Virus record (IMG/VR): IMGVR_UViG_3300024359_000006
Location: 24,350 to 88,349 of that record
Source of the DNA: a virus
DNA: 64,000 nucleotides
Reading direction: 5' to 3' (one strand)
Shown here: positions 22,342 through 61,244 of the stretch, piece by piece
Position numbering within the stretch: the stretch's first letter is position 1
Layout: every line of letters starts with the position of its first letter
Notes under the pieces: generated by a model
Seen by the model: the letters and a program-made list of their open reading frames with translations, nothing else
Told to the model about the DNA's origin: nothing
The model's database searches: none
Program-made: the position numbers and the translations under genes

Positions 22342-22710
22342 ATGAAAACATTTATAGAATATTTAGAAGAAAACAGAGTTACTGAAAAGGAAATGCAACT
22401 TTTAACAGAAGGACTTCAACAAGAATGGACTCCTGAACTAGAAGAAAAAGTAGATAAAGCAGTTGATGAATTTTTAAACGAATACAGAGATAAAAATGGA
22501 GACTTAGATGTTGATAGATTTAATAATGAAATGACTAATGAAGGTCTTTTAGGTTCCATTGTAGGTGGTCTTGCTGGATTTGCTTTAGGAAAATCTATTG
22601 GAAAAATGGTAGCTAAAGTATTAGGTGTACAAAAAGGTATTCTATATGATTTATTAACTTCACGACTCGTTGGAACTGCAATCGGAGCTTCAATCGGTAA
22701 AAGGTTTTAA
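22342..22710 (+). CDS. Capsid-targeted glycine-zipper membrane protein (candidate)
   Basis: A 122-residue protein. The N-terminus MKTFIEYLEE matches the capsid-targeting pattern [FY]xx[FY][ILV]xE of T4 internal proteins, and LLTE|G at residues 21-24 is a gp21-like cleavage site. The C-terminal 50 residues form glycine-zipper helices (SIVGGLAGFALGKSIGKMV and RLVGTAIGASIGKRF), typical of proteins that insert in or pack against membranes. If packaged, it could help form an ejection channel or act on the host membrane on entry; this is inference. It overlaps no gene and is followed directly by the RuvC-like gene. Confidence 0.5.
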   Translation: MKTFIEYLEENRVTEKEMQLLTEGLQQEWTPELEEKVDKAVDEFLNEYRDKNGDLDVDRFNNEMTNEGLLGSIVGGLAGFALGKSIGKMVAKVLGVQKGILYDLLTSRLVGTAIGASIGKRF

Positions 22711-22711
22711 T

Positions 22712-23368
22712 ATGAATTTTATTACAATTGATTTTTCTTTAAACTCTCCTGGTATTTGTTTATTTAATGACAATACTAATCAATATCATTTTATTTCTTA
22801 TTTAAAAAGATCAGGTACAAAAAAGGCTATTAAGACACAGGAAGACTTAGCTTTAATGGAGGGTGTTACTCTTGTTTTTCAGCCGGATTGGGAAACTCAT
22901 GTTGATTATTCTAGTATTGAACTTGCTAAGATTAAACGTTATGATATTATGTCAAATAATATTATCGAACTAATTACAAAACATATAGATAAAGAAGACT
23001 CATTTAAGATAGCATTTGAAGGGGTATCTTATGGTAGTTCTGCTGGGACTAATAATATTATTGATATGGCAGCGGCTGCATCTATTCTTAAGATTAAACT
23101 TCTCAAATACTTTAAGCCTGAAGATATTTTAACAATAGCTCCTTCAACAATTAAAAAACATGCAGGTAAAGGTAATATGAATAAGCTAGCTTTATGGGAA
23201 GTTTTTATAAATAATTCTACTGGTGAAAAATTTCTCGAGGAGACAAAATTCTGGAAGTTCGCTAAAACCGTTGAATTCGGTAAATCTATCCCAAAGCCCT
23301 TTGATGACCTTGTAGACGCTTTCTACTTAAACTCCTTAATGAGAACCTTAGAACCTAATCTTCCCTGA
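22712..23368 (+). CDS. RuvC-like Holliday junction resolvase
   Basis: A 218-residue RNase H-fold nuclease. Visible acidic residues in the RuvC pattern are D7 in ITIDFSLNSPG, E103 in IAFEGVSYGSSAG and D198/D199/D202 in KPFDDLVDAFY. RuvC-type resolvases cut four-way junctions made during recombination-dependent replication, before DNA packaging. T4 itself uses the unrelated endonuclease VII (gp49), so this may be a functional replacement. The start is ATG 22712, one base after the preceding stop; an in-frame start at 22670 would overlap that gene. It precedes the gp32-gp61-uvsY-uvsW group. Confidence 0.7.
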   Translation: MNFITIDFSLNSPGICLFNDNTNQYHFISYLKRSGTKKAIKTQEDLALMEGVTLVFQPDWETHVDYSSIELAKIKRYDIMSNNIIELITKHIDKEDSFKIAFEGVSYGSSAGTNNIIDMAAAASILKIKLLKYFKPEDILTIAPSTIKKHAGKGNMNKLALWEVFINNSTGEKFLEETKFWKFAKTVEFGKSIPKPFDDLVDAFYLNSLMRTLEPNLP

Positions 23369-23493
23369 GGCTTAAATACTTAAGTTATATAGCCCGTTCT
23401 CTCTTTTGTTTCAGAAAATATAAAAAAAAATTAAAAAAAGTTTTTAGTCTATTTGGTTGAAACTATTCTAAAAAGAGATATATAATATTGTAT
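23369..23493 (+). other. Non-coding leader before the 43-aa gene
   Basis: 125 bases with no gene. It is AT-rich with an A-run (about 23418-23442) and ends in TTGAAA, 18 bases, then TATAAT (about 23457-23486), a near-canonical sigma70 pair overlapping the GATATATAA motif. No tRNA or strong hairpin was seen. Confidence 0.4.
23477..23485 (+). promoter_or_regulatory. GATATATAA motif with upstream TTGAAA
   Basis: GATATATAA lies 8 nt before ATG 23494. TTGAAA is 18 nt before the TATAAT within it, so a host sigma70-type promoter is possible here as well as a phage-specific one. The short distance to the ATG would give a nearly leaderless transcript. Confidence 0.45.
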
Positions 23494-23625
23494 ATGGAAA
23501 ACGATAAACTAAGTTCATATTTGAACACTAATTATCGGACCCTGTCTGAAGCAAACATAGGTGCAATAGCACAAACTAAGTCGGTTAGACGCGCAAACAA
23601 GGTTCATATTATGAAACTATTTTAA
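23494..23625 (+). CDS. Small 43-residue protein upstream of gp32
   Basis: A short open frame, ATG 23494 to TAA 23625, encoding a basic polar peptide (MENDKLSSYLNTNYRTLSEA at the start, ending HIMKLF). It directly follows a good promoter-like sequence and precedes the gp32 leader. It has relatively GC-rich codons (for example CGG, CGC, TCG) compared with its neighbours. Unknown function; it could also be a regulatory leader peptide. Confidence 0.45.
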   Translation: MENDKLSSYLNTNYRTLSEANIGAIAQTKSVRRANKVHIMKLF

Positions 23626-23664
23626 AGTTGACTATATAATATTATAAGTTTAAAGTATAAACGG

Positions 23665-23702
23665 TAAATTAAAGTAAATTAAAGATTAAAAGTAAATTAA
23701 AG
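23665..23702 (+). promoter_or_regulatory. Repeated TAAATTAAAG leader, candidate gp32 autogenous operator
   Basis: The 10-mer TAAATTAAAG occurs three times (23665-23674, 23675-23684, 23693-23702), with a related ATTAAAAG between, ending 2 nt before the gp32 ATG. T4 gp32 represses its own translation by cooperative binding to an unstructured leader containing UUAAA repeats. The same kind of repeat in the same place supports a conserved operator; an upstream pseudoknot could not be shown by eye. Confidence 0.6.
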
Positions 23703-23704
23703 TT

Positions 23705-27906: not shown

Positions 27907-28641
27907 ATGGAAACACAAATTCAATCATTTGCTACATTTTCTGAAACTAGAAAAGCAGCAATAGACACTAAGATAAAAGAAGAAGCGTCTACAAAGAGAA
28001 CAACTGAAGCTCAAAGATTTGCTGACTTATTAGCTGAGTATGAAGTAACCACTGTTGCTGAAATAGCTGAAGAACAAAGAACTGAATTTTTTGCTAAATT
28101 AGTTGGAGAAACTGATGAGGTAGAAACTGAAGGTAATGCATTTGGAGCAGCTGTTAAAAAAGCAAAAGAAGAAGATAAAGAAGAATTTAAAGTAGGCGGA
28201 GAAACTTACAAAGTAGAAGAATCAACAGTTACCGAAGCTAGAGCTAAATATGTAAATACACAAAAAACAGTAGATGGTAATCCATTAATATCTTTTAATA
28301 GCTCCACTACTAGAGCTAAATGGATTGATGAAAATAAATCAAATGTTATATCTGTACCTGATTCAACGGTTATTAATTCCGATCAAGGTAGAGTAGTAGG
28401 TTCTAGTAGAGGTCCTTATTACTTAATCGTAAAGGCAGATGTACTAGAAGAATCTAAAGTTGAAGAAGCTGAAGTTAAGTCTGATGAAGATTTTATGGAG
28501 ATGGCTATGACAATGTATAAAGAAGCATTCGGTGATGATTTTGACGAGGCTAAAGCTAAAGAAGCTGCTGAAGGAATGTTAAAGAAAGCTGATGGAGACT
28601 ATGGAGCTGCTGTAGGAATGTTACAATCATCTTTAGGATAA
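27907..28641 (+). CDS. Acidic putative head-associated protein, UBA-like C-terminus
   Basis: A 244-residue Glu/Lys/Ala-rich protein with a helical N-terminus, a beta-rich middle (residues about 90-185, GNPLISFNSSTTRAKWID) and a short acidic C-terminal domain (residues about 210-244, AKEAAEGMLKKADGDYGAAV then GMLQSSLG) whose A-x-x-M...GDY--AV-ML pattern resembles a UBA-type three-helix bundle. The composition recalls phage prohead core proteins. It opens the cassette of capsid-targeted genes, directly after a candidate promoter, but its N-terminus is not a clear targeting peptide (SFATFSE is a weak resemblance). Function unknown. Confidence 0.45.
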   Translation: METQIQSFATFSETRKAAIDTKIKEEASTKRTTEAQRFADLLAEYEVTTVAEIAEEQRTEFFAKLVGETDEVETEGNAFGAAVKKAKEEDKEEFKVGGETYKVEESTVTEARAKYVNTQKTVDGNPLISFNSSTTRAKWIDENKSNVISVPDSTVINSDQGRVVGSSRGPYYLIVKADVLEESKVEEAEVKSDEDFMEMAMTMYKEAFGDDFDEAKAKEAAEGMLKKADGDYGAAVGMLQSSLG

Positions 28642-28656: not shown

Positions 28657-29922
28657 ATGTTATTAACTTACGAACAATTTCTAGTCGAAAAGGCTCAGAT
28701 AGTAGAGGGTAATTTGATTTTAGAAGGAGGAGCTGCAGGCCACATGCCTCATCCCTTTGACTATAATGATTTAACTTTCCAAGATTTTAAAACCATTGTT
28801 ACAAATTCATTACAAGGTGAAATACATTTTGAAGAAGGACCTACTGAAAAAACAGATGGTCAAAACTTCTTTGTTACAGTAAAGGATGGTCAAGTTCTTT
28901 TCTCAAGAAACAAAGGGCAACTAATGGCACCTGTATCTTTAGATGGAGTTATTAAAATGTTCACGGGCCATGCATCAAAACTAGTAGAAGATACTTTTAT
29001 CTATGCTGCAACAGATTTAGAAGCTGCATTATTAAGTTTAAGCGATCACCAAGAATTTAACAATGGACAAAACTTTCTTAATATGGAGTTAATTTATTCT
29101 AAGAACCCTAATGTGATTAATTATGACAGAGATGTTATTCAATTTCACGGCATGGCAGAAACTGATGGCAAAGGTAATATAGTTAACATGTCACAGCAAA
29201 CAGGTGCAAAACTTGCAAGACTTCTTAAAGGTATAGAGGCAGATGTACAAAAGACATTTACAATTATTCCTCCACAAATACTTAAACTTCAGAAAAACAT
29301 AGATTTTGAAAAGAGACAAAGTTATTATCACAGTAAATTAAATGACTTAAGAGATGAGTTTAATTTATCAGACGGTGACGAAGTTAAAATGTATCATGAA
29401 GCATGGTGGAGAAGAGAAATTGAAAAAGATTTTGCAGATATTTCAAGTGATTTAAAAGAAGGTTTATTTTTAAGATGGGCATACAATGACAAGCAAACTA
29501 TGAATATGGTTGCTATGAAAAAGATTGCTACTCCCGAACAAATGAAAAAAATCAAAGAGTTTGATAAGATAAAAGGTAAAAAGTATAAGCAGAATATTTT
29601 ACCATTTGAAAACTTATTTTTAGAGTTAGGAAAAGATGTATTATTAAATGCAAGTAATTTTGTTGCTGCAAATCCTGATTTAGAAAAGAAAAACTTACAT
29701 GCTAAAATTAGAAAGGCAGCAGCTGACGTTAAACTTAACGGTGACTTAAAGCAAGTTGCTAAAATCGAAGCTGAATTAGAAAGATTAGAAAGTATTGGAG
29801 GTATCGAAGGTATTGTACCAACTGAGGGAATAGTCTTTAAATATAAAGGTAAGATTATGAAACTTACCGGCACATTTGCTGCAATTAATCAGCTTATGGG
29901 CATCATAAAATACGGAAGATAA
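28657..29922 (+). CDS. Capsid-targeted nucleotidyltransferase (RNA/DNA ligase-like)
   Basis: A 421-residue protein. The N-terminus (LTYEQFLVE) matches the capsid-targeting pattern and ILE|G at residues 21-24 a gp21-like cleavage site. The rest carries motifs of the ligase/nucleotidyltransferase superfamily: motif I EKTDG with K65, D67 and G68, a second element FSRNKGQ at 82-88, motif III MELIY with E144, and motif IV/V TEGIVFKYKGKIMKLTG with E390 and K397/K399/K402. In this family K of KxDG is adenylated. Similar KTDG proteins occur in marine T4-like phages (from memory, a DUF6267-type group). It may join or modify nucleic acid, possibly inside the host just after injection. Confidence 0.6.
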   Translation: MLLTYEQFLVEKAQIVEGNLILEGGAAGHMPHPFDYNDLTFQDFKTIVTNSLQGEIHFEEGPTEKTDGQNFFVTVKDGQVLFSRNKGQLMAPVSLDGVIKMFTGHASKLVEDTFIYAATDLEAALLSLSDHQEFNNGQNFLNMELIYSKNPNVINYDRDVIQFHGMAETDGKGNIVNMSQQTGAKLARLLKGIEADVQKTFTIIPPQILKLQKNIDFEKRQSYYHSKLNDLRDEFNLSDGDEVKMYHEAWWRREIEKDFADISSDLKEGLFLRWAYNDKQTMNMVAMKKIATPEQMKKIKEFDKIKGKKYKQNILPFENLFLELGKDVLLNASNFVAANPDLEKKNLHAKIRKAAADVKLNGDLKQVAKIEAELERLESIGGIEGIVPTEGIVFKYKGKIMKLTGTFAAINQLMGIIKYGR

Positions 29923-29929: not shown

Positions 29930-31888
29930 ATGATAATTAATTATAATCAATTTATTTTAGAAAACGAAGATAAGGAATATGAGAAGTTAGATGCGAAAGC
30001 AGGTGACATGTCAAAAAAGTTAACCGATAAGGAGAGAGCACGTTATAAAGAATTAAGTAAAAAACATTTCCCAATAGTTATTAAAAAATTACCTGGAGAT
30101 GTTTATGAAATTAAGACAGTAGGTTTAGGATATACAGGCCCACAAGGAGATGTGTTAGCAGAATATTATAGAGAAGAAATTTTAGCAAAGGTAAAAAATC
30201 CAAAAGGTATTCACATGGATATTAGAAGAAATGATGGAGGACAACAGGCTCCAGCTAAGGCAATATTGGATTTTTTTGTAGATACACCTAAAGACGAAGA
30301 TGGAAATAGAAAAATTCCATTAGAACAACAAAGTAATTATTGGCCAACTGATGAATGGACAGATGAAGATAGAGAAAGAGGTTATCAATCGAAGACTAAT
30401 TATTTAGAAAGTAAAATAGAAGATAAGAATAAATTTACAAATATACCTACAGTGGTTTCCACAAGTGATTGGACATTTTCAGGAGGTGAATTCTTAACTG
30501 ACACTATAAAAAACTTTGGCAAAGACAACATTACACACGTTGGCTCTAATTCAGGAGGAGGAGCAAATAGAACGTCACATACTGCCGACGACATGGCATC
30601 AACTTGGCCAGATGAAGATCCAAATGCTGAAGGATTATCAGTTGATGAAAAGTTAGAAAGATCAATGAAAGTATTTGAAAAGTTTTATGTAGATAAAGAA
30701 AAAGCCAAAGAATGTAGAGAAGCAGTTATGAAAGATCCTAGTAAATATATTAAGGATGGAAAAATAAACGATAAAACAGTTCAAGACAAAATGCGTGAAA
30801 TTACAAAAGATTTTCATGTAGCATATTTTACAAGAGAAGATGGAAAAATTGAAGTAGCGACGCCTTATGGAAAATCTGATAGGATAGTAACTGATAAAGA
30901 TGGTAAGCCATTTGGACCTCCTTATGAATTTAAAGGAAATTGGGAAGGAACAGGAACAGGAAATGCAGTACCAGGAATAGGAATTACAGAAACAGATCCA
31001 GATACTGCTAAAAACAGCGCATTAGAATTACTATATACAAAGACTGGTCAGAAAGATCAGCTTGAAAAAATGAAATCAAATCCAAAAGAATTTGGTCTTA
31101 CTAAAGACGGCAAAGATGATTGGTATAAAAGAGGTACACTTGCAGATAGAGAAGCAGGTAGAGAACATAATTACCCAGGATATGCAGCTGAAGGAAAACA
31201 CCCTGAAATGTGGAAAGCTAGCCAAAAGGCAGCAAGTAAAAATATGAAAAACTGGAAAAGCATTCTTAAAAAAGCAGAGTCTAATAAAAATATAGATGAT
31301 AAATCTAAACCAGAGCCTGAAAATTGGTGGGAAGAATACAGTGATGAAGCAAAGGCCAAATATATTAAAAAACACGGAGAGGCTCCAGACGTCGGTAATA
31401 AAGTAAAACCAACTAATGAAAATAAAAGAAATATTATGAAAAAGGTTAAACTATTTGAAGAATTCTTAAATGAATCAACAATGAATAATTTTAAACCCGA
31501 GGTATTGTCTAATAGAGATAAAGTAGATATGAAGCTTTTTAAAAGTTTAATGCCTAGAACTGCTAAAACGGTTAAAGACGCTGATCGTAGAATTCAAACA
31601 TGGAAGGGTAATAAAATGTTTGTACATTATCAAGCATTTACAGTTCAACCAAATGGTAATAAACCAGATTTACCAACATATAAGTTCCATAATTCACAAT
31701 ATTGGTTAAACGATACTCAATTAGGTTGGGCAGGTAGAGCAGGTGAAAAGGTAAACATCACTTTATTAACAATAACTGATGTAACTGATCCTGATAATGA
31801 AAAAATGTTAGGAGAACTTTATGTTAATACCGATACATATTTACAAGAACACAATATAGTATTTAACGAGTTAAAGAAAATATCATAA
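29930..31888 (+). CDS. Capsid-targeted S41-peptidase-like protein with second cargo module
   Basis: A 652-residue protein. Residues 1-10 (MIINYNQFIL then E) match the capsid-targeting pattern. Residues about 55-200 have the order of an S41 (tail-specific/C-terminal processing) peptidase core: a VGLGYTG strand, DIRRNDGG (compare DLRxNxGG), and TFSGGEFLTDTIKNF with S184 in S-G-G-E as candidate nucleophile, followed by THVGSNSGGG. No PDZ domain is visible. A linker rich in Lys and Pro (300-500) leads to a second targeting-like peptide at residue 503 (MKKVKLFEEFLNES) and a 150-residue C-terminal domain ending ELKKIS. It looks like a fusion of two cargo modules, or two products from one gene. Peptidase activity is inferred. 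Confidence 0.5.
   Translation: MIINYNQFILENEDKEYEKLDAKAGDMSKKLTDKERARYKELSKKHFPIVIKKLPGDVYEIKTVGLGYTGPQGDVLAEYYREEILAKVKNPKGIHMDIRRNDGGQQAPAKAILDFFVDTPKDEDGNRKIPLEQQSNYWPTDEWTDEDRERGYQSKTNYLESKIEDKNKFTNIPTVVSTSDWTFSGGEFLTDTIKNFGKDNITHVGSNSGGGANRTSHTADDMASTWPDEDPNAEGLSVDEKLERSMKVFEKFYVDKEKAKECREAVMKDPSKYIKDGKINDKTVQDKMREITKDFHVAYFTREDGKIEVATPYGKSDRIVTDKDGKPFGPPYEFKGNWEGTGTGNAVPGIGITETDPDTAKNSALELLYTKTGQKDQLEKMKSNPKEFGLTKDGKDDWYKRGTLADREAGREHNYPGYAAEGKHPEMWKASQKAASKNMKNWKSILKKAESNKNIDDKSKPEPENWWEEYSDEAKAKYIKKHGEAPDVGNKVKPTNENKRNIMKKVKLFEEFLNESTMNNFKPEVLSNRDKVDMKLFKSLMPRTAKTVKDADRRIQTWKGNKMFVHYQAFTVQPNGNKPDLPTYKFHNSQYWLNDTQLGWAGRAGEKVNITLLTITDVTDPDNEKMLGELYVNTDTYLQEHNIVFNELKKIS
31436..31477 (+). 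other. Internal capsid-targeting-like peptide / possible internal start
   Basis: The in-frame ATG at 31436 (residue 503) begins MKKVKLFEEFLNES, almost the same as the true N-termini of the genes at 38644 and 38974. A separate 150-residue protein could be made by internal initiation, or gp21 could cut a fused precursor here. The A-rich upstream sequence (AATAAAAGAAATATT) is like other starts in this window. Confidence 0.5.
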
Positions 31889-31899
31889 AATTATAAGAA

Positions 31900-33738
31900 A
31901 TGGCATTACAGGATTTAAGAACATATTATGAGTCAGTTGAAAAAGAGGATTTTAATAATCTCTTAGCACAGAAATGTTTAGTTACTGAAAAGATTCAAGC
32001 AAGTAGTCTTCATGTAAGAAGAGAAGATAGACTCTTAGAATTTTATAAATCAGGTAATAAGCAGGCTCTTAATAAAATAGATAGAACAATTGTTTCTTAC
32101 TATGAAAAAGGTATAGGCCATTTTAAAGCATTATTAGACGAGACTATTCAACAGATGCCAAGTGATTGGAAATTTGGATTTGATTATATGGTTAGTGAAA
32201 AGACAGTAGACATTGAATATGATACACTTCCAAAAAATAGTCTTATATTAACACATATTCAAGTATTAAATGAAGACAGAACCCAGATTAAAAAAGTAAT
32301 TAGAGATCCTAAGATTTTAGAAAAATGGGCTAATCTTTTAGAAGTTCAATCGCCTGAGGTTGTTTATGAAGGCATCCTTTCAGATCACCAAAAGGAAAAG
32401 TTAGTTAATATACTGAGCTTACAAGGAGAGCAAGCAAAAATAGAATTACAAGATTTTGGTTTTTCTTATAGAGCATTTACAACATTTAACGAGTCAATTC
32501 ATAAGTCAATGTTAAACAATGATATTCATAAAGACATTGATGGATTAGTTGTAAGTTTTGTAGAGGGCAAATCATTAAAGAACTTTAAACTACAGAGTCC
32601 ATTAAAAGAAATTAAAGAACAAGAAGAAAGAAAGAGTTCGGATGCGTATCAAATTACCGTAGTAAAACTTATTGAATATTTTAATGCGTTTGATTTTAGT
32701 GAAATACAACTTGAAAGTAAAGAAGTTGATGAGAGATATTTAGAATTAATGACAGCAGGTTTTAATTCATTTATAAAAGATAATGGAGCAAGCTTTATTG
32801 GCATGAATTTTGATAGCGCAGAGTTTGCAAACAATGAAGCATTTGATTTAAATCCAAAAATGATAACAAATCAAGAAACTATTAGGCTTGTTAATGAATC
32901 AAGAGAAGTCGCAGAATTATTAAAAATAACATTAGGTACTTTTAGAAAGAAGAGACAGAAAGAAAATGGAGTTTTAGCAGGAGATGCATTTAATAGTTTA
33001 AACGGTATTATAGAAAAGATTGAAGCAAGAATTTACGAAAAAGTAGAGGAAGATAGTGTAATGGATTTTAAAACATTTAAAATTAACGATACACTTAAGG
33101 GACAAACAAATCCAATTAACGAAGGTTTAAAAGTAAACCATCCTGAAAGAGGAGCTAAAGAAGTTAATATGTTTGTTGGTAGGTTTCAGCCATTCACATT
33201 AGGACATGTTAAAGTCGTTGAACATTTGCATAAACAAAATGGACTTCCAACTGTTATATTTTTAGTTAAAGCTAAAAAGAAAAAGAAAGAAGACAGTTTT
33301 AAAAGACCATTTGATGAAACAATGCAGGTAAATATGATAAAACAGGTGATGAAGGAATATCCTATTGAGACAGTGTATGTTATAGATACCGCAGCAATTG
33401 ACAAAATGTTTAATGCTATGAGACCTAAGTATGAACCTGTATTATGGGGAACAGGTAGTGATAGAATGAAAACATATGGCTATCAAGTTAATAACCCAAA
33501 ATATAGAGGAGAATTAGGAGTTGAAGATAGCTTCAGATTAGAAGAAATTCCAAGGACAGACGATAACATTAGTGCAACAAAGGTAAGAAACGCTTTATTA
33601 GATGGAGACGAAAAGACATATAAGTCCATGACTCCAAAATCTATGCACAAAATGTATAAATTATTAAAACAAACAATGGAAGAAAGTGTTGAACTACAAG
33701 AACAAGTTTTAACATTTTCAGAATTTAAAAGCAAATAA
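31900..33738 (+). CDS. Ligase-like domain fused to NMN adenylyltransferase-type domain
   Basis: A 612-residue protein. Residues about 25-240 are ligase-like but with a degenerate motif I, EKIQASS (K31, then Q-A instead of D-G), then LLEFYKSG and DGLVVSFVEGKSLKNFKL in the motif IV/V position. Residues about 420-575 are a nucleotidylyltransferase with (T/H)xGH in GRFQPFTLGHVKVVE (T433-H436) and the second signature ISATKVR near 557-563, as in NMN adenylyltransferases of NAD salvage. It is in the capsid cargo cassette but its own N-terminus (MALQDLRTYYESVEKEDF) is not a clear targeting peptide. It may make NAD from NMN or transfer adenylate to another substrate. The ligase half may be inactive. 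Confidence 0.6.
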   Translation: MALQDLRTYYESVEKEDFNNLLAQKCLVTEKIQASSLHVRREDRLLEFYKSGNKQALNKIDRTIVSYYEKGIGHFKALLDETIQQMPSDWKFGFDYMVSEKTVDIEYDTLPKNSLILTHIQVLNEDRTQIKKVIRDPKILEKWANLLEVQSPEVVYEGILSDHQKEKLVNILSLQGEQAKIELQDFGFSYRAFTTFNESIHKSMLNNDIHKDIDGLVVSFVEGKSLKNFKLQSPLKEIKEQEERKSSDAYQITVVKLIEYFNAFDFSEIQLESKEVDERYLELMTAGFNSFIKDNGASFIGMNFDSAEFANNEAFDLNPKMITNQETIRLVNESREVAELLKITLGTFRKKRQKENGVLAGDAFNSLNGIIEKIEARIYEKVEEDSVMDFKTFKINDTLKGQTNPINEGLKVNHPERGAKEVNMFVGRFQPFTLGHVKVVEHLHKQNGLPTVIFLVKAKKKKKEDSFKRPFDETMQVNMIKQVMKEYPIETVYVIDTAAIDKMFNAMRPKYEPVLWGTGSDRMKTYGYQVNNPKYRGELGVEDSFRLEEIPRTDDNISATKVRNALLDGDEKTYKSMTPKSMHKMYKLLKQTMEESVELQEQVLTFSEFKSK

Positions 33739-34785: not shown

Positions 34786-37239
34786 ATGGCAACATTCGAA
34801 GAATTTTTAAACGAAAGAAATATAACTCTTAAAAGAAGATATACTGAATCACACCCTTCCCAAACTGTAGGCAATTCAGCTAGAGTTAGAAATGCAATTA
34901 TCGAAGCATTAAAGGATGGCAAAATAACAGTTGAAGAATTTAATAATATAGTTAGTCAACACTCTTCTGCTCCATCAAAATGGACAAGAGGTAATAAAAG
35001 ATTTTTCAAAATAGAAGAAGATGGCGTAAGTCTTTCTAAATATGGAACAAAAATATTAAATAGCTTAGTTACTGAATCTATAGATGAAGGTTTAAATAAG
35101 TCAGATGTTACATATCAATTAGCAATAGATTATACAGGTAGAACTAAGCCGAAAATTACTAAACTTAATAAGAAAAGACTTGAAATTAAGTACGGTTATA
35201 AAATTAGCCCAGAAACGGTAATTGATTCTATCAAGAAGGTTCATCCAGAAGTAGAACTTAAACATGTTGAATGGTCAGATAAAATGTCAGGTGGAGGTTT
35301 TCACATATTTGATATTTTAGAATCTGCAGTTACTGAAGGAACATATGACTCAAAAGATCATATAGGATCTACATCAGATGGACAAGGTTCTAATGCTGAG
35401 ATTTATAAAAAAGGTAGAGGATATTATGTAGTTGTTAGTGGAGAGTATGATTATGACTTCGAGGCTAAGAATGACAAAGAACTAATAAATAAGTTAGAAG
35501 AATATGAATTTGATTCTTCTGATATTTTAGAATCAGCGATTAATAATATAGAAGAAAATATGATACATAATAATTTTAATGAATTCATTAATAAATCAAT
35601 TAATGAAAATAACGTACAGGATTTAGATATGGAAGATATGAATCCTAAAATGGCTAAGCAGCTATTAAACATGGCTAGTAAACAATATAAAAACGAATTT
35701 CAAGGATCTTATACTGTAGATAAAGGAAATAAAAAAATGAGGTTTGATACTTATAGTGCTTTATTAGCTATGGTAAAGCAAAAAGATTCTGGACCTTATG
35801 GTCCTTCATATGGTATTAATATTGGAGGAAATAATGAATTAGAAGATTTTGAAGGTAATGTTTTAGGTAAGCTAAATGATAAATCATTATCAAGTGCAAT
35901 TAGTAGTGTTGCAGCTGCTATGAAAATGGCAGCTAAAAACAGTAATGAATCAGTAGTTACTGAAGCCAGAGTAAGTGCAAAAAAGTTATTAAAATCAGTT
36001 GTAAATGGAGAAAGTAACTCAGTTGAAGGTATTAAACTTTCTAAAGAAATGGCCCAATCATTTTTAGAGTGGCTAGATCAATCAAGTTATGGTAGAAAAT
36101 TTAGCGATCTTCCATTTGATAAATTATTTAGTGCAGCATTTAATTGGGGTATTGAAAGATATGCTAAAGACAATAAACTGAAAAATGAATTAAAAGATTT
36201 AAAAACAAAGGCAAAAACAATGAAAGAATCAAAAATATACGAAAGTTTCAGTGAATTTGTTAATGAATCTTTAGAACTTAATGAAGCATTAAAGAGTTCT
36301 AAACTTAGAGGACTTCTTACTATGAAAAGAGGTAGTAAGGCAATTTTAAAAGCAATTTATGGCTTTAGTAAAATAGAATTAGACAAAATAACAGATGATC
36401 AAATAATAGATATTGATCCTAAATTAGGTAAAAAAGCAGAAGGTTTAGTTGTTTATTATACAACTCAAGAAAAAGACAACCCTTATGCTGATACTTCAAA
36501 ATCTACATATAATTCTGCTGGTAAAATTCCAGCAAATACAATACTTGCATTAGGTATGGGAAAAGACGTTGCATATGTTAAAAGAGATTATATTAAGAGA
36601 AAAATGACAATGTCTTTAACTACAGATCCTAGAAAATCATCTTATGATATTGGAATTAATAAAGAGTATAGAGGCTGGGACGCATCCGGTATTTATAATG
36701 TAAAAAGAGTAATTGATGTTGCAGACGCTGCATTTGTAATTAATACTAACGCTCTTCCAAATACTAAAGGAAAAATTGAAGACAGAGTAAAAGCTAAAGA
36801 AGGTGCATTAGCATTTAAATCTGATAAGGAATTTAAAGATGCAAACATAGCAAGATATAGAGAAATTCTACAAAAGAGAGCAAGTGAATTACCAATAGAT
36901 AAATTAGTAGAAGATGCAATTGATGATGCAACTAAGGTTATGAAAGATGGTTTAAAAAATCAAGAAAAAAATAAGTACGGAGAACTTATTGCAGGTGTAG
37001 GAAAGGACGGTAGAGCTTATAAATTAAATGACATTAGTAATTTTATAAATGGTTTAATTTCAGACTATGAAAGATGGTCAGGTTATATGGCAACAATTGA
37101 AGAGGCTGAAGCTAAATATGGTAAAGATTCTAGAGAATTTGAATGGGAAGCTAGATATTCTCAAAAAGAATCTGAGGAATACGCAAAGAGAATTAAAGAT
37201 AAATTAGCTAAACTTAAGAAAAGAAACTTAGCTTGGTAA
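34786..37239 (+). CDS. 817-aa capsid-targeted polyprotein candidate
   Basis: An 817-residue protein with targeting-like peptides at its N-terminus (ATFEEFLNE), at residue 259 (MIHNNFNEFINKS) and at residue 479 (MKESKIYESFSEFVNES). Between them are gp21-like sites: LVTE|S at 97, AVTE|G at 184, VVTE|A at 393, and LNE|A soon after the third peptide. Blocks of about 90-220 residues lie between these points. The last block (about 500-817) has a conserved-looking globular domain with YGELIAGVGKDGRAYKLNDI and a Lys-rich helical end. No known enzyme recognised. It reads as a precursor cut by the prohead protease into several internal head proteins; this is inference. It overlaps the next start by one base. 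Confidence 0.55.
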   Translation: MATFEEFLNERNITLKRRYTESHPSQTVGNSARVRNAIIEALKDGKITVEEFNNIVSQHSSAPSKWTRGNKRFFKIEEDGVSLSKYGTKILNSLVTESIDEGLNKSDVTYQLAIDYTGRTKPKITKLNKKRLEIKYGYKISPETVIDSIKKVHPEVELKHVEWSDKMSGGGFHIFDILESAVTEGTYDSKDHIGSTSDGQGSNAEIYKKGRGYYVVVSGEYDYDFEAKNDKELINKLEEYEFDSSDILESAINNIEENMIHNNFNEFINKSINENNVQDLDMEDMNPKMAKQLLNMASKQYKNEFQGSYTVDKGNKKMRFDTYSALLAMVKQKDSGPYGPSYGINIGGNNELEDFEGNVLGKLNDKSLSSAISSVAAAMKMAAKNSNESVVTEARVSAKKLLKSVVNGESNSVEGIKLSKEMAQSFLEWLDQSSYGRKFSDLPFDKLFSAAFNWGIERYAKDNKLKNELKDLKTKAKTMKESKIYESFSEFVNESLELNEALKSSKLRGLLTMKRGSKAILKAIYGFSKIELDKITDDQIIDIDPKLGKKAEGLVVYYTTQEKDNPYADTSKSTYNSAGKIPANTILALGMGKDVAYVKRDYIKRKMTMSLTTDPRKSSYDIGINKEYRGWDASGIYNVKRVIDVADAAFVINTNALPNTKGKIEDRVKAKEGALAFKSDKEFKDANIARYREILQKRASELPIDKLVEDAIDDATKVMKDGLKNQEKNKYGELIAGVGKDGRAYKLNDISNFINGLISDYERWSGYMATIEEAEAKYGKDSREFEWEARYSQKESEEYAKRIKDKLAKLKKRNLAW
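35560..35598 (+). other. Internal capsid-targeting-like peptide 1
   Basis: Codons for MIHNNFNEFINKS at residue 259 of the 817-aa protein, following IEEN and a possible domain boundary. The pattern position of the last Glu is Lys here (NK), so it is the weakest member. Confidence 0.4.
36220..36270 (+). other. Internal capsid-targeting-like peptide 2
   Basis: Codons for MKESKIYESFSEFVNES at residue 479 of the 817-aa protein, then LELNE|A, a gp21-like site. It begins with an in-frame ATG after a Lys-rich linker, like a normal cargo N-terminus. Confidence 0.5.
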
Positions 37240-37745
37240 TGAACGAAAACGTTACACCAGCAAATATTGGAGGTATGGGAAATCCTGCCTTTCCACAAGG
37301 TGGAGAAGTAGGAAGTGGAGATGTGCCAGCTGGTAAAGGAGATGCTAAGAAAGAGCAAAAGAAAAAGAAGAAAGAAAGAGAAGAATATCTTAAAAATAGA
37401 AAAGAAGAAATGGTACATACTACATTTAGTGGATTTATAAATGAAGCTAAAATTAAAGATGCTAGAAAAGATTTAGGCTATATTGCATTTCTTGAAGAAA
37501 TGGCAGAAATTAATAATAGAGACATTCAAAACGCATATGATGTTGCACTAAAAGTTTTACAAGATAAAGGTATGAGTGAAAAGGAAGCAATTGGATTTTT
37601 AAACTCACCACATGGAAAGTATATGGCAGAATATTTAATTCCAGGTCAAGATTATAGTCATGAAGCATTCTTAGACAAATTAGATGAATACTATAACGAA
37701 AGAATGTTGAAACAATATGCAAAGGATTTTAAAAACCTAGCATAA
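37239..37745 (+). CDS. Protein with MCP-like N-terminal motif and internal targeting peptide
   Basis: A 168-residue protein; start ATG 37239 overlaps the preceding stop (TAATG). Its N-terminus ANIGGMGNPAFPQGGE shares NIGGMG-x-x-AFP with the major capsid protein gp23 of this window (residues 59-69). A very basic stretch (KKEQKKKKKEREEYLK) follows, then a targeting-like peptide at residue 58 (MVHTTFSGFINEA) and a helical C-terminal domain of about 100 residues. The mixture of a capsid-protein-like arm and a cargo peptide is unusual; it may bind the capsid shell or core. It is followed by a strong terminator. Confidence 0.5.
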   Translation: MNENVTPANIGGMGNPAFPQGGEVGSGDVPAGKGDAKKEQKKKKKEREEYLKNRKEEMVHTTFSGFINEAKIKDARKDLGYIAFLEEMAEINNRDIQNAYDVALKVLQDKGMSEKEAIGFLNSPHGKYMAEYLIPGQDYSHEAFLDKLDEYYNERMLKQYAKDFKNLA

Positions 37746-38204: not shown

Positions 38205-38627
38205 ATGAACAATATTAAGAATTTTAACGACTTTATTAATGAGTCTCAAGAAATAAACGAAGGTACTCGTTCTCAATTTGGAAAAATTGATAAAAAAGGA
38301 AATATAACTTCAGTTTATATGCATTATGATGGTTATCCAGAAAACGTATTACCTATTTTAAGAAAAGGTTATAAAGGTGGAAAAAATGTAGATTATGTAC
38401 TTTCACAAGGAAGTGGTTCAGGTCTTGAAGTAAATCCTAAGAAAATTAACTTTTATAAAGATGATAGAGATTCTCAATCAACTGGTAATGTTGCAACAAT
38501 TGCAAATTATTTATCAGATGTAGAAGATGATGGTGGAGCAGAATACGTTTATTTATGGGATGAAAGATCAAAGCAATGGATGATGGCATCTTATGGTGAA
38601 AGAGACTTAAAGGTTGCAGAAGTTTAA
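38205..38627 (+). CDS. Capsid-targeted small protein with HYDGYPE domain
   Basis: A 140-residue protein. N-terminus MNNIKNFNDFINES matches the targeting pattern and INE|G at 17-20 a gp21-like site. The rest is one compact domain with SVYMHYDGYPENVLPIL, which resembles a family with (C/M)H(W/Y)DGY found in Bacteroidota and their phages (recalled, function unknown). It is the first of three tandem targeted genes between a candidate promoter and the terminator at 39.5 kb. Confidence 0.5.
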   Translation: MNNIKNFNDFINESQEINEGTRSQFGKIDKKGNITSVYMHYDGYPENVLPILRKGYKGGKNVDYVLSQGSGSGLEVNPKKINFYKDDRDSQSTGNVATIANYLSDVEDDGGAEYVYLWDERSKQWMMASYGERDLKVAEV

Positions 38628-38643: not shown

Positions 38644-38955
38644 ATGAAAAACGTAAAATTATTCGAAGAATTTATAAACGAAGATATTGACTCAAATAAA
38701 ATATTTGAATTAACTGAACTAGAAAAAAAAATTAATGGCTTTACAGGCCAAGCACAGGTAAAAGCTAAAGTTGGAGTAACGACATTTTCTGTTTCAAAAT
38801 ACATGATAGTGTTTGATTATGACGAAGCTAATAAAGATTTACCATTTGTATTTAGACCAGATATGAAATCTGCAAAAGTAGCAAAGGATAAATTAGAAAA
38901 AACTGACATGTTTACTCCTGAAATGAACTTAAGAATTGAAGAAATTAAATATTAA
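38644..38955 (+). CDS. Capsid-targeted small protein
   Basis: A 103-residue protein starting at ATG 38644 (16 nt after the previous stop; an upstream in-frame TTG at 38614 is less likely because the targeting peptide begins at 38644). N-terminus MKNVKLFEEFINEDID, nearly identical to that of the next gene, while the bodies differ. Predicted alpha/beta domain (VGVTTFSVSKYMIVFDYD). Probably an internal head protein; activity unknown. Confidence 0.5.
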   Translation: MKNVKLFEEFINEDIDSNKIFELTELEKKINGFTGQAQVKAKVGVTTFSVSKYMIVFDYDEANKDLPFVFRPDMKSAKVAKDKLEKTDMFTPEMNLRIEEIKY

Positions 38956-38973: not shown

Positions 38974-39429
38974 ATGAAAAATATAAAATTATTCGAAGAG
39001 TTTATCAATGAAAACGATATGATGGCTACAACGCCAGCAGAACTTAAAAAAATGGCTAAAAAATTTAAACAAATCCATTATGACATGGCCTCCGGTGATT
39101 TTGAAGAGGAAGATATAGATGCAAACTTTAAATTTATAACAGACTTTCTTGGAACAGACCAAATAGTTGAAATAGTTGGAGGAGACCATTGGGCTAATCA
39201 TTCTTCTGGAAAAGAATTAACAGACATTTATAATGATTTAATCACTAAGATTAAAAACAAGAAAGACCATGAATTAGATTCAGGAGCAGACTATGTTACA
39301 GGTACATTAAATGGAGCAAAGGTAGTTTGTCAATACGATGGTTACAGTACCCCTACTCATTTATCAATTATGATAAACGTTAATGACATTAAAAAGTTTG
39401 ACATTAAAACAACACCTTTTGTAGTTTAA
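38974..39429 (+). CDS. Capsid-targeted small protein
   Basis: A 151-residue protein. N-terminus MKNIKLFEEFINENDMM differs from that of the gene before it by one residue in the first 13, but the body is different: helical N-terminal half (ELKKMAKKFKQIHYDMASGD) and a beta-rich C-terminal half with YVTGTLNGAKVVCQYDGYS. The leader is A-rich without Shine-Dalgarno sequence. Last gene before the terminator at 39.49 kb. Confidence 0.5.
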   Translation: MKNIKLFEEFINENDMMATTPAELKKMAKKFKQIHYDMASGDFEEEDIDANFKFITDFLGTDQIVEIVGGDHWANHSSGKELTDIYNDLITKIKNKKDHELDSGADYVTGTLNGAKVVCQYDGYSTPTHLSIMINVNDIKKFDIKTTPFVV

Positions 39430-45874: not shown

Positions 45875-47077
45875 ATGATTTTACAATATAACGAATTTTT
45901 AACAGAAAAAGAAGTTTCCATATCAAGAAGAAACTTTTATACAAAGGCTTTTCCACAATTTCTTAATGAAGATGAATTAGTCGAAGCCGCTAATTTAATA
46001 AATGAGGGTCTTTTTGATAATCTTTCTTTAGAAAAAATAGAAATGTTAAATGAGTCAGAACTTTATGAAAGTTTACTTTTAGAATTAAATTTAATACAAA
46101 GGCTAAAAGATAAAGCAACAGATGCATATCAAGTTGTAAAAGATAAAGGTAAAAAAGCTTTAAGTGCTATTCAACAAGGGGTGTTAGCAATTGGAGGTAA
46201 AATAGCCAATATTATTAAAAAGATTGTAGAAAATATTAAAGCAGTTGCTAAAAAAGCATTTGAAGCTGGTAAAAAATTAGCAAATAGCGCAAAGTCAAAA
46301 ATGATAGCAGCTTTTAAAAATGAATTAGATTCTGGAAAGACTAATGACAAAGATGCAATGAAAAACAAACTTAAATCTTTAAAAGACGATGTTCAAAATG
46401 GTAAAAAGGTAGGAAAACACGTTATAAAATGGTGTACTAAAGACGTTGCTAAGGAAACTGCTGACGCAATTATAAAAGGTGCAAAAGAAGATACTGATAA
46501 ATCAAAGAAAGATAAAGATACAAGTGAATCTATGGGATACAGAAGCATGGATTTATTTATGGAACATTCGTTATATAATACATTTTCAGCAGCAATTGAT
46601 GCAGGTGAAATGGATCTTAATGAAATAGAACAACAATTAAACGAAGCTGGAGATAAAAAAGCAGCTAAAATTCCATTTATTTCTACTATTGCAAAATTTG
46701 TCAATAAGTTTCCACCTTTTAGTATTCTAAAAACGCTTAAAGAAAAAGGAGCTGAGGTAACAGGAGGATTATTAGGAAATTTATCTAAAATGGCAACTAA
46801 AGTAATGGGAGCTCCAGGACCTTATAAGTTTTTAGCAGTTGCTACATTCATAGGTCTCGCTCTTGAAATAATAATGAAAGATACTATAAAAACCCTGACT
46901 ACAAGCGTAATTACTACACTGTTCTTTCCACCAGCTGCTCCATTTATTACTGCAGTGTTTAATGCAGCTTATGTACTTGCTGCAATCGCAGCTCTTGAAG
47001 TAGTTTTAGGTACTATTGAAGATAATGATGCAGATGATGCAAAGGCAGCAGCAAAGACATCCTCTAATAAAGCTTAA
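45875..47077 (+). CDS. Capsid-targeted membrane-active protein candidate
   Basis: A 400-residue protein if it starts at ATG 45875, where MILQYNEFLTEKE matches the targeting pattern (an in-frame ATG at 45857 adds six residues). LINE|G near residue 44 and LNE|A further down are gp21-like. The middle (about 70-150) is Lys/Ala-rich amphipathic helix (for example GKKLANSAKSKMIAAFKNEL), and the C-terminus has hydrophobic segments (LAVATFIGLALEIIM and FITAVFNAAYVLAAIAALEV). It resembles a packaged protein that acts on membranes or makes a DNA channel, but this is inference. It sits between nrdA and the clamp. Confidence 0.5.
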   Translation: MILQYNEFLTEKEVSISRRNFYTKAFPQFLNEDELVEAANLINEGLFDNLSLEKIEMLNESELYESLLLELNLIQRLKDKATDAYQVVKDKGKKALSAIQQGVLAIGGKIANIIKKIVENIKAVAKKAFEAGKKLANSAKSKMIAAFKNELDSGKTNDKDAMKNKLKSLKDDVQNGKKVGKHVIKWCTKDVAKETADAIIKGAKEDTDKSKKDKDTSESMGYRSMDLFMEHSLYNTFSAAIDAGEMDLNEIEQQLNEAGDKKAAKIPFISTIAKFVNKFPPFSILKTLKEKGAEVTGGLLGNLSKMATKVMGAPGPYKFLAVATFIGLALEIIMKDTIKTLTTSVITTLFFPPAAPFITAVFNAAYVLAAIAALEVVLGTIEDNDADDAKAAAKTSSNKA

Positions 47078-58173: not shown

Positions 58174-58175
58174 TA

Positions 58176-59233: not shown

Positions 59234-59274
59234 AAAAAATTGAATATATAAATTTATAAACGATATAAGAAATT

Positions 59275-60879
59275 ATGGCAGGTTTTGCAGATAAGGATCC
59301 AAGAAATGGTCCATTAAGTAATAAGAGACCTTTTAGGTTAAACAATACATTAAAGTTACTTTCATCATTCGGTATGAGATATGATGATATGATACTTAGA
59401 CAGTCTCAGGCGGTTGGTCCATTAGAAGATAAGTTTGGTTATGGCCAAATGAATCCAATGGGATTAGATAATGATGATATGTATGCAGCATTTGCTGCCT
59501 TGTCAATGGCCGATACTACAATGCGAAAAAACATTCCTTTTTTCGATCAACAATATGAAGTAAAAAGAGATGAACTTAGAAGTTTTTCAGTAAACGATGA
59601 GATTGAAGATATTTTAGATATACTATGTGACGAAACTATCGTATATGATAATAAAAACTTTTTTGCTTCTCCTGAAATCTTAGGAGTTGAAGTTGCAGAT
59701 GGAATTCAAAAAGATTTAAACAGATATTTTAGACAAATATACCATGCATTTGGATTTAACTCAGATCAATCTGCTTGGTACTATTTTAGAAAATGGTTAA
59801 TTGATGGTTATTTAGCATTTGAAATTATTTATTCACCTGATCAAAAGGAAATTATTGGTTTTAAAGAACTTGATCCAATTACATTAGTTCCGGGTTATAA
59901 TAAAGAAGATGGTAAAAAAGTATGGGTACAATTTAAAGATGATCCAGTAAAAGAAAGAACCTTATATGATTCTCAAATCATTTACCTTTCTTATTCTTCT
60001 ATAACAACAGCAGGTAGAGTCAGCTATGTTGAAAGACTTATTAGATCTTTTAACTTATTAAGAATTATGGAACATACTAGAATTATTTGGGCAGTGACTA
60101 ATAGTTCTTATAGAATGAAATTTGTTATACCAGTCGGTGGTAAATCTAAAACAAGAGCAAAACAATCACTTGCACAATTAATGAATTCATATAAAGAAGT
60201 AGTTGATTTTGATTGGGAGTCTGGTTCTATGACAACCGATGGTAAACCTATGCTACAATTTAATAAAGAATATTGGTTACCAAGTAAAGACGGTGACAGC
60301 CCTGAGATTGAAACATTAGATGCATCGGGTCCAGACCTTTCAGATACAGAAGCACTTAAATATTTTTCAGATAAACTTAAACATGTTTCTAAAATACCTT
60401 ATTCTAGATTCTTATATGAAGACGGTGGTGGAGATTTTAATCTTGCTGCTGATGGAATGATTAGAGATGAAATTAAATTTAGCAAGTTTGTAAAGAGACT
60501 AAGATCAGCTTTCCAAGAAATATTGGTTAAGCCACTATATTTACAAATGTGTATTGCATATAAAGATTTAGCAGAAGATCCAGGTTTTAAAACACAGGTT
60601 GCATTAAGATATAATAGAGATAATGACTTTGCAGCTTTAAAAGAAATGGAAATCATGGAAAGAAGACTTGATTTTGTTTCTACAATGAGAGACAGTTTAA
60701 TGACAACTAATCAAGAAACAATGGAAGAGGAATACTACTTTGATATGGAGTTCTTAGTTGATAGATACTTACAACTGAGCCCAGATGATATTGCTGCAAA
60801 TGCAGCAGCTAAGAAAAAGGCTGAAAAACAAGATGCAGAAGCTCCGGAACCAGAGGATCCAATGGGAATGGGAATATAA
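59275..60879 (+). CDS. 20: Portal vertex protein gp20
   Basis: A 534-residue protein, close to T4 gp20 (524). VKRDELRSFSVNDEIEDILD and ALLDE-type early segment, SAWYYFRKWLIDGYLAFEII, LDPITLVPGYN, and YFSDKLKHVSKIPYSRFLYE are typical portal patterns, and the C-terminus is Ala/Glu-rich. Twelve copies form the ring at the unique vertex through which DNA is packaged. It is followed by prohead core, protease, scaffold and capsid genes, as in T4. Confidence 0.9.
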   Translation: MAGFADKDPRNGPLSNKRPFRLNNTLKLLSSFGMRYDDMILRQSQAVGPLEDKFGYGQMNPMGLDNDDMYAAFAALSMADTTMRKNIPFFDQQYEVKRDELRSFSVNDEIEDILDILCDETIVYDNKNFFASPEILGVEVADGIQKDLNRYFRQIYHAFGFNSDQSAWYYFRKWLIDGYLAFEIIYSPDQKEIIGFKELDPITLVPGYNKEDGKKVWVQFKDDPVKERTLYDSQIIYLSYSSITTAGRVSYVERLIRSFNLLRIMEHTRIIWAVTNSSYRMKFVIPVGGKSKTRAKQSLAQLMNSYKEVVDFDWESGSMTTDGKPMLQFNKEYWLPSKDGDSPEIETLDASGPDLSDTEALKYFSDKLKHVSKIPYSRFLYEDGGGDFNLAADGMIRDEIKFSKFVKRLRSAFQEILVKPLYLQMCIAYKDLAEDPGFKTQVALRYNRDNDFAALKEMEIMERRLDFVSTMRDSLMTTNQETMEEEYYFDMEFLVDRYLQLSPDDIAANAAAKKKAEKQDAEAPEPEDPMGMGI

Positions 60880-60887
60880 AAATAGAT

Positions 60888-60896
60888 GATATATAA
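60888..60896 (+). promoter_or_regulatory. GATATATAA motif close to a start codon
   Basis: Same 9-mer 3 nt before ATG 60900, the third short-spacing case. Confidence 0.3.
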
Positions 60897-60899
60897 ACT

Positions 60900-61244
60900 A
60901 TGAAAATTAAAACATTTAATCAATTTATAACTGAGGCTCAATTAACATCTATTAAAGCAGGTGATGATAGTAAAGTAGAGGTCAGCGATCAAAAAACAGC
61001 AGATGGTAAAGTTATTTCTGCTCAAGAAATTTTAGGACAAATTATATCAGCAGATACTGAAGATGCGTTCAAGGCTTATTTCTATGAAAAATATGGTTCT
61101 ACTAAATTTGATACAGCAACAATGGGACAAATGATGTCAGCCTATCAAGATTATTATAAAGAACAAGCTGAAGAAGAGAAGGAAAAAGAAAAAGAAGAGG
61201 AAGGCGGAGATGAAGAAGACCCACTAACTGGAATGGATGTTTAA
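60900..61244 (+). CDS. Prohead core protein with capsid-targeting peptide (gp67/gp68 position)
   Basis: A 114-residue protein between the portal and the protease, where T4 has gp67 and gp68. N-terminus MKIKTFNQFITEA matches the targeting pattern and ITE|A a gp21 site. The C-terminus is strongly acidic (EEEKEKEKEEEGGDEEDPLT), as in T4 gp67. It is probably a scaffold core component cut by the prohead protease. Leader has only the short-spaced GATATATAA. Confidence 0.6.
   Translation: MKIKTFNQFITEAQLTSIKAGDDSKVEVSDQKTADGKVISAQEILGQIISADTEDAFKAYFYEKYGSTKFDTATMGQMMSAYQDYYKEQAEEEKEKEKEEEGGDEEDPLTGMDV

Follow-up and report, generated by a model that had tools for sequence, protein, structure and literature searches.

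An expanded T4-type capsid-targeting peptide on unrelated and partly modular phage proteins points to a probable capsid-cargo system

A short peptide of the kind that directs internal proteins into the head of phage T4 opens many otherwise unrelated proteins of a T4-type phage and its relatives, and several of the proteins that carry this tag are modular, a point overlooked in the original prediction, which was made from the DNA alone. The window analyzed here spans 64,000 nucleotides, i.e., bases 24350-88349 of the 88,349-base IMG/VR virus record IMGVR_UViG_3300024359_000006, and positions below are those of the window unless another record is named. The reading that we favor, with a probability of roughly 0.77 as judged from sequence, is that the tagged proteins are capsid cargo, some of them polyproteins, which would be targeted to the head by the tag, built from exchangeable modules, cut by the prohead protease and injected with the DNA. 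What the sequences themselves show is the tag, its N-terminal enrichment, the unrelated bodies behind it, the rearrangement of modules, the module junctions near the motif [ILV]xE, and the T4-type head genes of the phage.

All thirteen copies of the tag that had been predicted were found in a sequence check of the window, nine of them N-terminal (starts 22342, 28657, 29930, 34786, 38205, 38644, 38974, 45875 and 60900) and four internal (31436, 35560, 36220 and 37410), each internal copy opening with an in-frame Met; only one of the 13, at 35560 (FNEFINK), has a final K rather than E. With the strict pattern [FY]xx[FY][ILV]xE, 9 of 54 window open reading frames (ORFs; greedy ATG ORFs of ≥60 amino acids, aa) carry the tag in their first 20 residues, compared to a mean of 0.124 and a maximum of 3 in 2000 shuffles of the N-termini. 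These shuffles preserve N-terminal composition and rule out a chance origin of the tag. Across 13 records, the density of the strict pattern is 8.3x higher in the first 25 residues (115 of 39,501 positions vs. 167 of 477,107 elsewhere). The N-terminal enrichment over the rest of the proteins, the lack of which had been named beforehand as a possible refutation, is thus present. Among the 115 N-terminal matches counted is a topoisomerase-like protein of record LR756500 (at 165332) that looks chance-like by eye. Outside the N-termini, the 54 ORFs hold 16 strict copies (shuffle mean 2.5, maximum 9), of which five belong to the scaffold part of the protease ORF, three are internal tags, one is a further tag within the 45857 ORF, and seven lie in other places. 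Copies beyond those first listed are the scaffold series (61943-62395), the second copy at 45950, and a variant, SFATFSE, on the protein at 27907-28641.

The enrichment extends to related phages. A 204,977-base record (G001) that matches the protease-scaffold and an 817-aa protein of the window at 100% has tagged N-termini on 13 of 251 ORFs (shuffle mean 0.68), a 256-kb relative (G011) on 24 of 325 (0.72, maximum 5), the 462-kb megaphage LR756500 on 22 of 649 (2.67, maximum 8), and the first 140 kb counted of the 735-kb LR756501.1 on 12 of 140 (0.42), which suggests that tagged proteins may number in the dozens in the largest huge phages. The other records, G003, G004 and others being fragments, gave 7/152 (G002), 2/100 (G003, shuffle maximum 2), 4/107 (G004), 9/98 (G005), 8/111 (G014), 4/94 (G015), 4/49 (G016), 6/34 (G017), 6/61 (G018) and 6/48 (G019). 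Reference phages stayed at shuffle level (S-PM2 1/236, HTVC008M 0/183, Mel-JY01 1/237, pT24 1/281) or at the shuffle maximum of 3 (KVP40, 3/388), and these counts of 0 to 3 contradict, within this panel, tag expansion as a trait of all T4-like phages. The 115 tagged proteins in 13 records were sorted into 57 body families, whose representatives align in the tag only, in agreement with the claim that differing bodies stand behind one peptide. Tag-bearing genes also occur far from the head genes, and in G011 (193196-200277) the strict tag is present on 13 of 15 consecutive genes and a variant on a fourteenth. This array encodes, among others, a P-loop kinase, an acetyltransferase and a 2H phosphoesterase with a match to the anti-CBASS family Acb1.

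In T4 itself, the strict pattern returned only two of 254 proteins, both opening MKTYQEFIAE and presumably IPII and IPIII. In amber-suppressor tests of T4 IPIII, residues 4 and 7 acted mainly in targeting and residues 8 and 10 in processing, gp21 cuts after L/I-x-E, and an Asp at position 10 allowed targeting and blocked processing (available part of PMC9026906). The aromatics, the hydrophobic residue and the Glu of our tag share the spacing of these four mutation-sensitive residues and agree with all of them, as expected of a T4-type capsid-targeting peptide. The motif often begins 1-3 residues later in the tags than in IPIII, and V is permitted at [ILV], beyond the L/I motif of T4. A cut motif of prohead-protease type, L/I/V-x-E, sits within the tag itself; one variant tag (MKLFEEFIQD, G001 149872-150456) has an Asp at the cutting position. 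An alignment of 55 body-family representatives (out of 57, omitting the LR756500 165332 protein and G011 199513, a gene cut by the edge of the analyzed stretch) has as its sole common part MKxIKxFExFxNE, in which the Glu never varies and at least 90% share the second aromatic. Codons at the conserved Glu (68 GAA, 16 GAG) and at the second Phe match genome usage, which indicates that selection acts on the peptide and disfavors a DNA or RNA element, though a few other tag positions depart from the genome norm (second-position Glu, GAA 51/53; first Phe, TTC 23/71). A position-weight scan placed 17 of 251 proteins in G001 and 4 of 254 in T4 above a 0.1% shuffle threshold; since the training set contained G001 tags, only 4 of these 17 matches are independent.

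The tag is also found among the head genes, which are organized as follows:

59275..60879, plus strand: portal protein of T4 gp20 type (PF07230, 1.2e-72)
60900..61244, plus strand: tagged acidic core-like protein of 114 aa between portal and protease (position, tag)
61292..63190, plus strand: S77 prohead protease fused to a scaffold half (PF03420, 5.1e-11, 42.9 bits, cut-off 27; phrog_207, 1.9e-38)
63275..64000, plus strand: major capsid protein, start only, continuing past the window (G001 87628-89034; position and resemblance)

The window phage is T4-type from its portal, its S77 prohead protease fused to the scaffold and its gp23-type major capsid protein, and its T4-type gene set includes UvsX, DNA polymerase, SbcC/D-like proteins, ribonucleotide reductase and a DNA end protector. 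By reading, its protease and T4 gp21 have GEL[ND]HP and SSR in common; protease and scaffold form one reading frame here, whereas they are separate genes in T4. The scaffold half contains 14-residue repeats like YSEYLAEKTDQNIQ, bearing YxxYIAE, with the tag pattern occurring 5x strictly and 8x loosely, a series of tag-like repeats that distinguishes it from T4 gp22 (which we take to be gp22 from its position). The propeptide of T4 gp23 ends with FGSFLTE, and the major capsid protein of our phage starts MANLINEA, with an N-arm MNIGGMGAVAFPS. The tag-bearing 114-aa protein occupies the place of the T4 core proteins gp67/gp68, and tagged members of its family were found in 7 of the 13 records, among them G001. 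The suspicion that part of the peptide is a general core-binding signal is strengthened by the tag on this protein and by the recurrence of the same heptapeptide in the scaffold. Because the tag resembles the phage's own scaffold repeats, mimicry of such a repeat is probably how cargo gains access to the core.

Modular organization is seen in the following tagged protein of the cluster:

34786..37239, plus strand: tagged polyprotein of 817 aa, with modules A1 (34816-35079), A2 (35089-35325) and A3 (35338-35535), an internal tag (35560), modules B (35611-35952) and C (35965-36216), a second internal tag (36220) and module D (36286-37236)

Its five close orthologs, of 678, 706, 866, 1104 and 1170 residues, have other module sets. 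BLAST comparison of 21 modules from these orthologs and a few other proteins, with edges set by eye at [ILV]xE, indicated modules of ~50-320 residues that are gained, lost, reordered and moved between genes. The order is A1-A2-A3-B-C-D in the window phage, A1-A2-A3-C-D in G005, A1-A2-A3-B-D in G002, A1-A3-F-A2-C-J-D in G019, A1-E-F-A2-G-H-C-I-J-K-D in G017, A1-M-A2-H-N-E-C-L-J-D in G018 and M-A1-D in G011 and G014, while only A1 and D were recognized in G015 and G016. One polypeptide can thus hold up to 11 modules, as defined by sequence (G017 2499-6011). The same modules appear in other genes, with E and L in the G005 ortholog of the 38205 protein, G in the window gene at 27907-28641, J in G001 141388, and C and X1 in G011 87544. 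The four modules tested that are common to non-homologous genes have 88-97% DNA identity, and their exchange is therefore recent.

Since the module edges had been chosen at [ILV]xE, the joints were tested with breakpoints taken from BLAST ends. Across 21 tagged proteins (members of the 37239 family, or with a strict tag among the first 30 residues), 69 of 116 internal breakpoints fell within 6 residues of [ILV]xE, against 25.3 expected and a maximum of 37 in 300 random sets. In a control of 95 other proteins the count was 80 of 387 against 63 expected, inside the random range. Among the 20 amino acids tried at the third place, Glu was the strongest (2.7x), followed by Thr (2.1x) and Ser (1.4x); Thr and Ser occur in the linkers themselves (ESAVTEA, ESVNEA). 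The residue after the linker Glu is mostly Ser or Ala (43 of 75 sites). Judged by reading, the majority of joints between modules are short linkers ending in [ILV]xE, with no full tag and no Met. Shared residues in these linkers use identical codons in 295 of 416 pairs (231.5 expected; control 1806/3422 vs. 1701), a weak indication that fits recombination at the linkers.

Module D provides a larger set of contexts, its profile having 112 relatives in viral contigs. The best 80 of these 112 gave 55 contexts after removal of repeats, six of them truncated at contig ends. The part preceding D ranges from 19 to 853 residues, and the strict tag opens 39 of the 49 complete ones. In 50 of the 55 an [ILV]xE is found no more than 7 residues ahead of D, compared to 22% of random upstream positions, and the five contexts lacking it were all rows whose match started inside D. 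A search of seven reference phages for module D gave no match, which is in itself uninformative. D also occurs as a stand-alone gene, behind a strict tag (L280) or a variant tag (L281), and a second case is offered by a two-part protein upstream of the polyprotein:

29930..31888, plus strand: tagged two-part protein of 652 aa, with an S41-peptidase-like part (Pfam Peptidase_S41, 8.6e-05, 22.6 bits, under the cut-off of 24), an internal tag (31436) and a C-terminal module

In G005 this C-terminal module has a tagged gene of its own (31830-32300, 94%). With the stand-alone tagged D, this makes former N-termini the best reading of the internal tags. A 680-aa protein of G001 (132449-134491) with two internal MKNLETLESFINEA copies, each starting with Met, is apparently, from its sequence, two tagged genes fused in frame.

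Enzyme-like bodies were sought with profile and structure searches. In the G011 array, bodies scored above curated cut-offs for the pair AAA_33 and Zeta_toxin (40.7 and 35.4 bits) and for GNAT (31.6 bits), and the 2H body, with two HxT motifs, for 2_5_RNA_ligase2 and Acb1 (30.1 and 28.3 bits). Among the matches listed for the 55 representatives (the first 25 of 38 families) were DUF2201, leucine-rich repeats and PNK3P (2.4e-21), with one member each. The PNK3P match most likely belongs to the LR756500 protein at 317088, which matched solved structures of polynucleotide kinase-phosphatases at 3e-05 and HisB phosphatase better, at 1.7e-10. A single-domain tagged zincin matched PF18818 under the cut-off (8.4e-04), and PDB sequence searches of the S41-like, kinase-like and 2H proteins gave no match at the limits set. 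A window candidate for an enzyme is the following:

28657..29922, plus strand: tagged protein of 421 aa, candidate RNA-ligase-like nucleotidyltransferase (relatives, structure comparison)

It has 41 relatives, with the strict tag before EGGAAGHM in 39 of them and with 24 distinct upstream sequences; of the two misses, one has a Leu for the first aromatic and the other has no upstream frame. K65, D67 and G68 of motif I are invariant in 15 sequences, and KTDG is found in 17. In the structural comparison of an AlphaFold2 model built from a 17-row alignment (predicted local distance difference test, pLDDT, of 72), RNA ligases, including fungal Trl1 and a Naegleria ligase, fill the top ten rows, with alignments that begin at KTDG, at Z-scores of 5.3-6.3, where values <8 may reflect a common arrangement only. 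Foldseek alone reached E 0.9 at best, and no PDB sequence matched it with E <0.1. The 28657 protein is thus probably, though not certainly, RNA-ligase-like. The fungal tRNA ligase Trl1 combines activities of just these types (ligase, kinase and 2H), and it is tempting, if speculative, to view the tagged ligase-like, kinase-like and 2H proteins as an RNA-repair set.

Taken together, the proposed capsid-cargo system would most likely work as follows. The aromatic residues of the 10-13-residue tag would bind the scaffold core, and its Ile/Leu/Val-x-Glu end would, from the motif, be where the prohead protease cuts. The prohead would close around core plus cargo; both this closure and the injection of cargo are known for T4. 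Once the prohead is assembled, its protease would clip off the tags and cut the strings at [ILV]xE linkers and internal tags, and the resulting many small proteins would stay among the packed DNA and then be injected with it. Cargo genes gain, lose and exchange modules, for which recombination at the linkers is the probable mechanism, and this would let the phage change its injected repertoire quickly. We infer core binding, packaging, cutting, injection and the role against host defenses. That role would be the likeliest one for the cargo, as T4 internal proteins can act against host defense (IPI against GmrSD; IPIII needed on Escherichia coli ECOR17; available parts of PMC3012670, PMC9391042). 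Given the unrelated bodies and the recognizable enzymes in relatives, a capsid cargo with several activities, as originally proposed, appears the best reading of the sequences. We give an even chance to a joint and more specific proposal, in which the head-maturation protease acts as a polyprotein protease: recombination-shuffled effector cassettes, encoded between linkers with protease sites, would be packed as strings by means of scaffold-mimicking tags and set free singly in the capsid before injection, and part of them would form an RNA repair kit (tagged ligase-like, kinase-like, 2H phosphoesterase or 3'-phosphatase proteins) acting before phage expression.

Several results weigh against the capsid-cargo reading. 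Breakpoints were also raised at [ILV]xT (26 vs. 12.5 expected, random maximum 21), 47 of the 116 lay away from any site, and those of related proteins are non-independent. Internal [ILV]xE[AGS] sites, whose density is by itself a weak test, were not in excess in LR756500 tagged proteins (7 vs. 11.2 expected) and only modestly so in G001 (tagged 18 vs. 9.2, others 177 vs. 135) and G005 (tagged 14 vs. 8.0, others 101 vs. 66.5), so that the polyprotein form is not general. The cleavage specificity of the window-phage protease is assumed from T4, and the AlphaFold2 model of the 817-aa protein (pLDDT 43.6) is too poor for the question of a beads-on-a-string structure. None of ten window proteins scanned reached a Pfam cut-off, such that the predicted enzyme-like domains are well supported mainly for the relatives, where curated cut-offs are reached; PADLOC gave one weak match among 55 proteins. 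The two T4 matches are, taken alone, within the shuffle range (mean 0.52, maximum 4). Finally, the isoelectric point (pI) of the body is >8 in only 35 of 115 tagged proteins and <8 in 8 of 10 window bodies; basic bodies are a trait of the three T4 proteins IPI-III, not of the targeting signal.

Unlikely, yet to be taken seriously, is the alternative that head targeting by the tag works as in T4 but the multi-module proteins stay whole, with [ILV]xE sites as fusion relics or flexible joints. Uncut delivery has precedents in the N4 virion RNA polymerase, packaged unprocessed, and in the plasmid proteins ArdC and TraC1, transferred full length; P1 DdrB is cut before packaging (available part of PMC5512222). 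The resemblance of internal tags to former N-termini would be explained by fusion via stop loss, and we only infer cutting. Relic tags would be expected to decay, yet [ILV]xE is kept before D in the 50 of 55 differing contexts reported above (best 80 of 112 relatives), and most joints are, by reading, only short linkers that repeatedly received new modules. These linkers, with neither Met nor tag, are also what is left unexplained if internal ATGs serve as translation starts and one frame yields nested tagged products (compare T4 gene 21) in place of a polyprotein that is cut. All four internal tags of the window do begin with an in-frame Met, two tagged parts exist elsewhere as separate genes, and T4 gene 21 has such an internal start, but we consider nested starts a little less probable still, and they are compatible with cutting at the few Met-bearing joints.

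A very improbable alternative would have the tag as another sorting or assembly signal (membrane, tail), or as an RNA or DNA element for expression or recombination. The indirect case for packaging, the tag-bearing genes far from head genes, the linker codons slightly more alike than usage predicts and the tag positions off genome codon use would all suit it. It fits poorly with the genome-like codons at the invariant Glu and second Phe, and with a pattern that is seen again in the scaffold and on the protein in the gp67/68 place and coincides with the T4 sequence mapped by experiment.

The capsid-cargo system that we propose resembles several known ones. With T4 IPI, IPII, IPIII and Alt it shares a short N-terminal peptide with aromatics, Ile/Leu and Glu in the same spacing, a T4-type portal, S77 protease and capsid protein, and one tag on diverse bodies. 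As T-even phages are known to have one conserved tag on diverse internal proteins (available part of PMC3012670), the signal itself is not new. The proposed system differs from T4 in the number of tagged proteins (2 in T4 vs. 13 to 24 in the three longest records here), in bodies that are mostly non-basic and in part enzyme-like, in several modular polyproteins with internal tags, and in the tag-like repeats of the scaffold. Polyvalent proteins of phages and conjugative elements (Iyer et al. 2017) likewise combine many small domains per polypeptide, 2 to 15 diverse ones, accompany DNA and are linked to host conflict, and their processing, as discussed in the part of PMC5512222 available, relies mainly on built-in zincin peptidases, whereas the joints here have the prohead-protease motif; a T4-type tag and modules moving between tagged genes at the joints further set our proteins apart. 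No published polyvalent domain (e.g., MPTase-PolyVal) was found in the two polyproteins scanned. In the giant phages SPN3US and phiKZ, many head proteins are cut after a short Glu-ending motif by a diverged gp21-type protease and ejected, with propeptides mostly far longer than the T4 sequence and with no single common heptapeptide; the available part of PMC5694885 makes no mention of shuffled polyproteins. The N-terminal 30 residues of P1 DarB suffice for head entry, as the tag would here, whereas Dar N-termini are described without a common consensus (available part of PMC9024508). In the open-access literature, covered mostly at title and abstract level, we found no account of tag expansion in these phages, of arrays of tagged genes or of shuffled polyproteins joined at prohead-protease motifs.

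So far, capsid-targeting sequences are known for only a handful of proteins in T4. If true, one peptide rule would predict from sequence which proteins many uncultured large phages carry into cells, and yield a list of first-response counter-defense candidates, most of them of unknown function. A phage polyprotein system exchanging modules at protease sites would be a route to evolve an injected repertoire of which we found no earlier description, its natural tags and linkers might serve to load several proteins into a phage head, and the match between tag and scaffold repeat is a testable model of capsid targeting.

The remaining cargo and cargo-associated genes of the window are:

22342..22710, plus strand: tagged protein of 122 aa (MKTFIEYLEE) with a glycine-zipper-like C-terminal stretch (G005 ortholog 86%)
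27907..28641, plus strand: variant-tag protein (METQIQSFATFSE), with a module at residues 111-183
31900..33738, plus strand: nicotinamide mononucleotide (NMN)-adenylyltransferase-like protein with an extra N-terminal part (phrog_3041, 9.1e-17; PF01467, 4.1e-08; PDB 1f9a, 2.6e-04)
37239..37745, plus strand: cargo protein of 168 aa with an N-arm NIGGMGxxxFP, a tag at 37410, then the body
38205..38627, plus strand: tagged protein of 140 aa with a PHROG 1987 body (phrog_1987, 8.9e-16)
38644..38955, plus strand: tagged protein of 103 aa (MKNVKLFEEFINE; tag only)
38974..39429, plus strand: tagged protein of 151 aa (MKNIKLFEEFINE; C25 peptidase, 20.6 bits, under the cut-off of 23)
45875..47077, plus strand: protein with tandem tags (YNEFLTE, FPQFLNE) and a C-terminal part hydrophobic by eye (G004 ortholog 58%)

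The module of the 27907 protein is 96% identical to one in the 1170-aa ortholog of the 817-aa polyprotein (DNA 95.9% over 245 bases). Relatives of the 37239 protein have one module inserted after the tag or added at the end, the G005 ortholog of the 38205 protein has two extra modules between tag and body, and bodies similar to the latter lie, by reading, within large polyproteins of G011 and G015. The 31900 protein lies inside the cargo cluster without an N-terminal tag, and its membership of the cargo is therefore uncertain; its extra N-terminal part has ligase-like motifs by eye, with a PINE/G joint, and a tag-like LTFSEF stands at the wrong, C-terminal end. The N-terminus of the 37239 protein (37239-37300, NIGGMGNPAFPQGG) is similar to the N-arm of the major capsid protein given above, and this arm may, from its sequence, be a second, shell-directed signal. 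The 22342 protein matched Pfam Gly-zipper_Omp at 6e-05 (23.3 bits, under the cut-off of 25), and it and the 45875-47077 protein, with their membrane-like C-terminal stretches, are candidates for an ejection channel.

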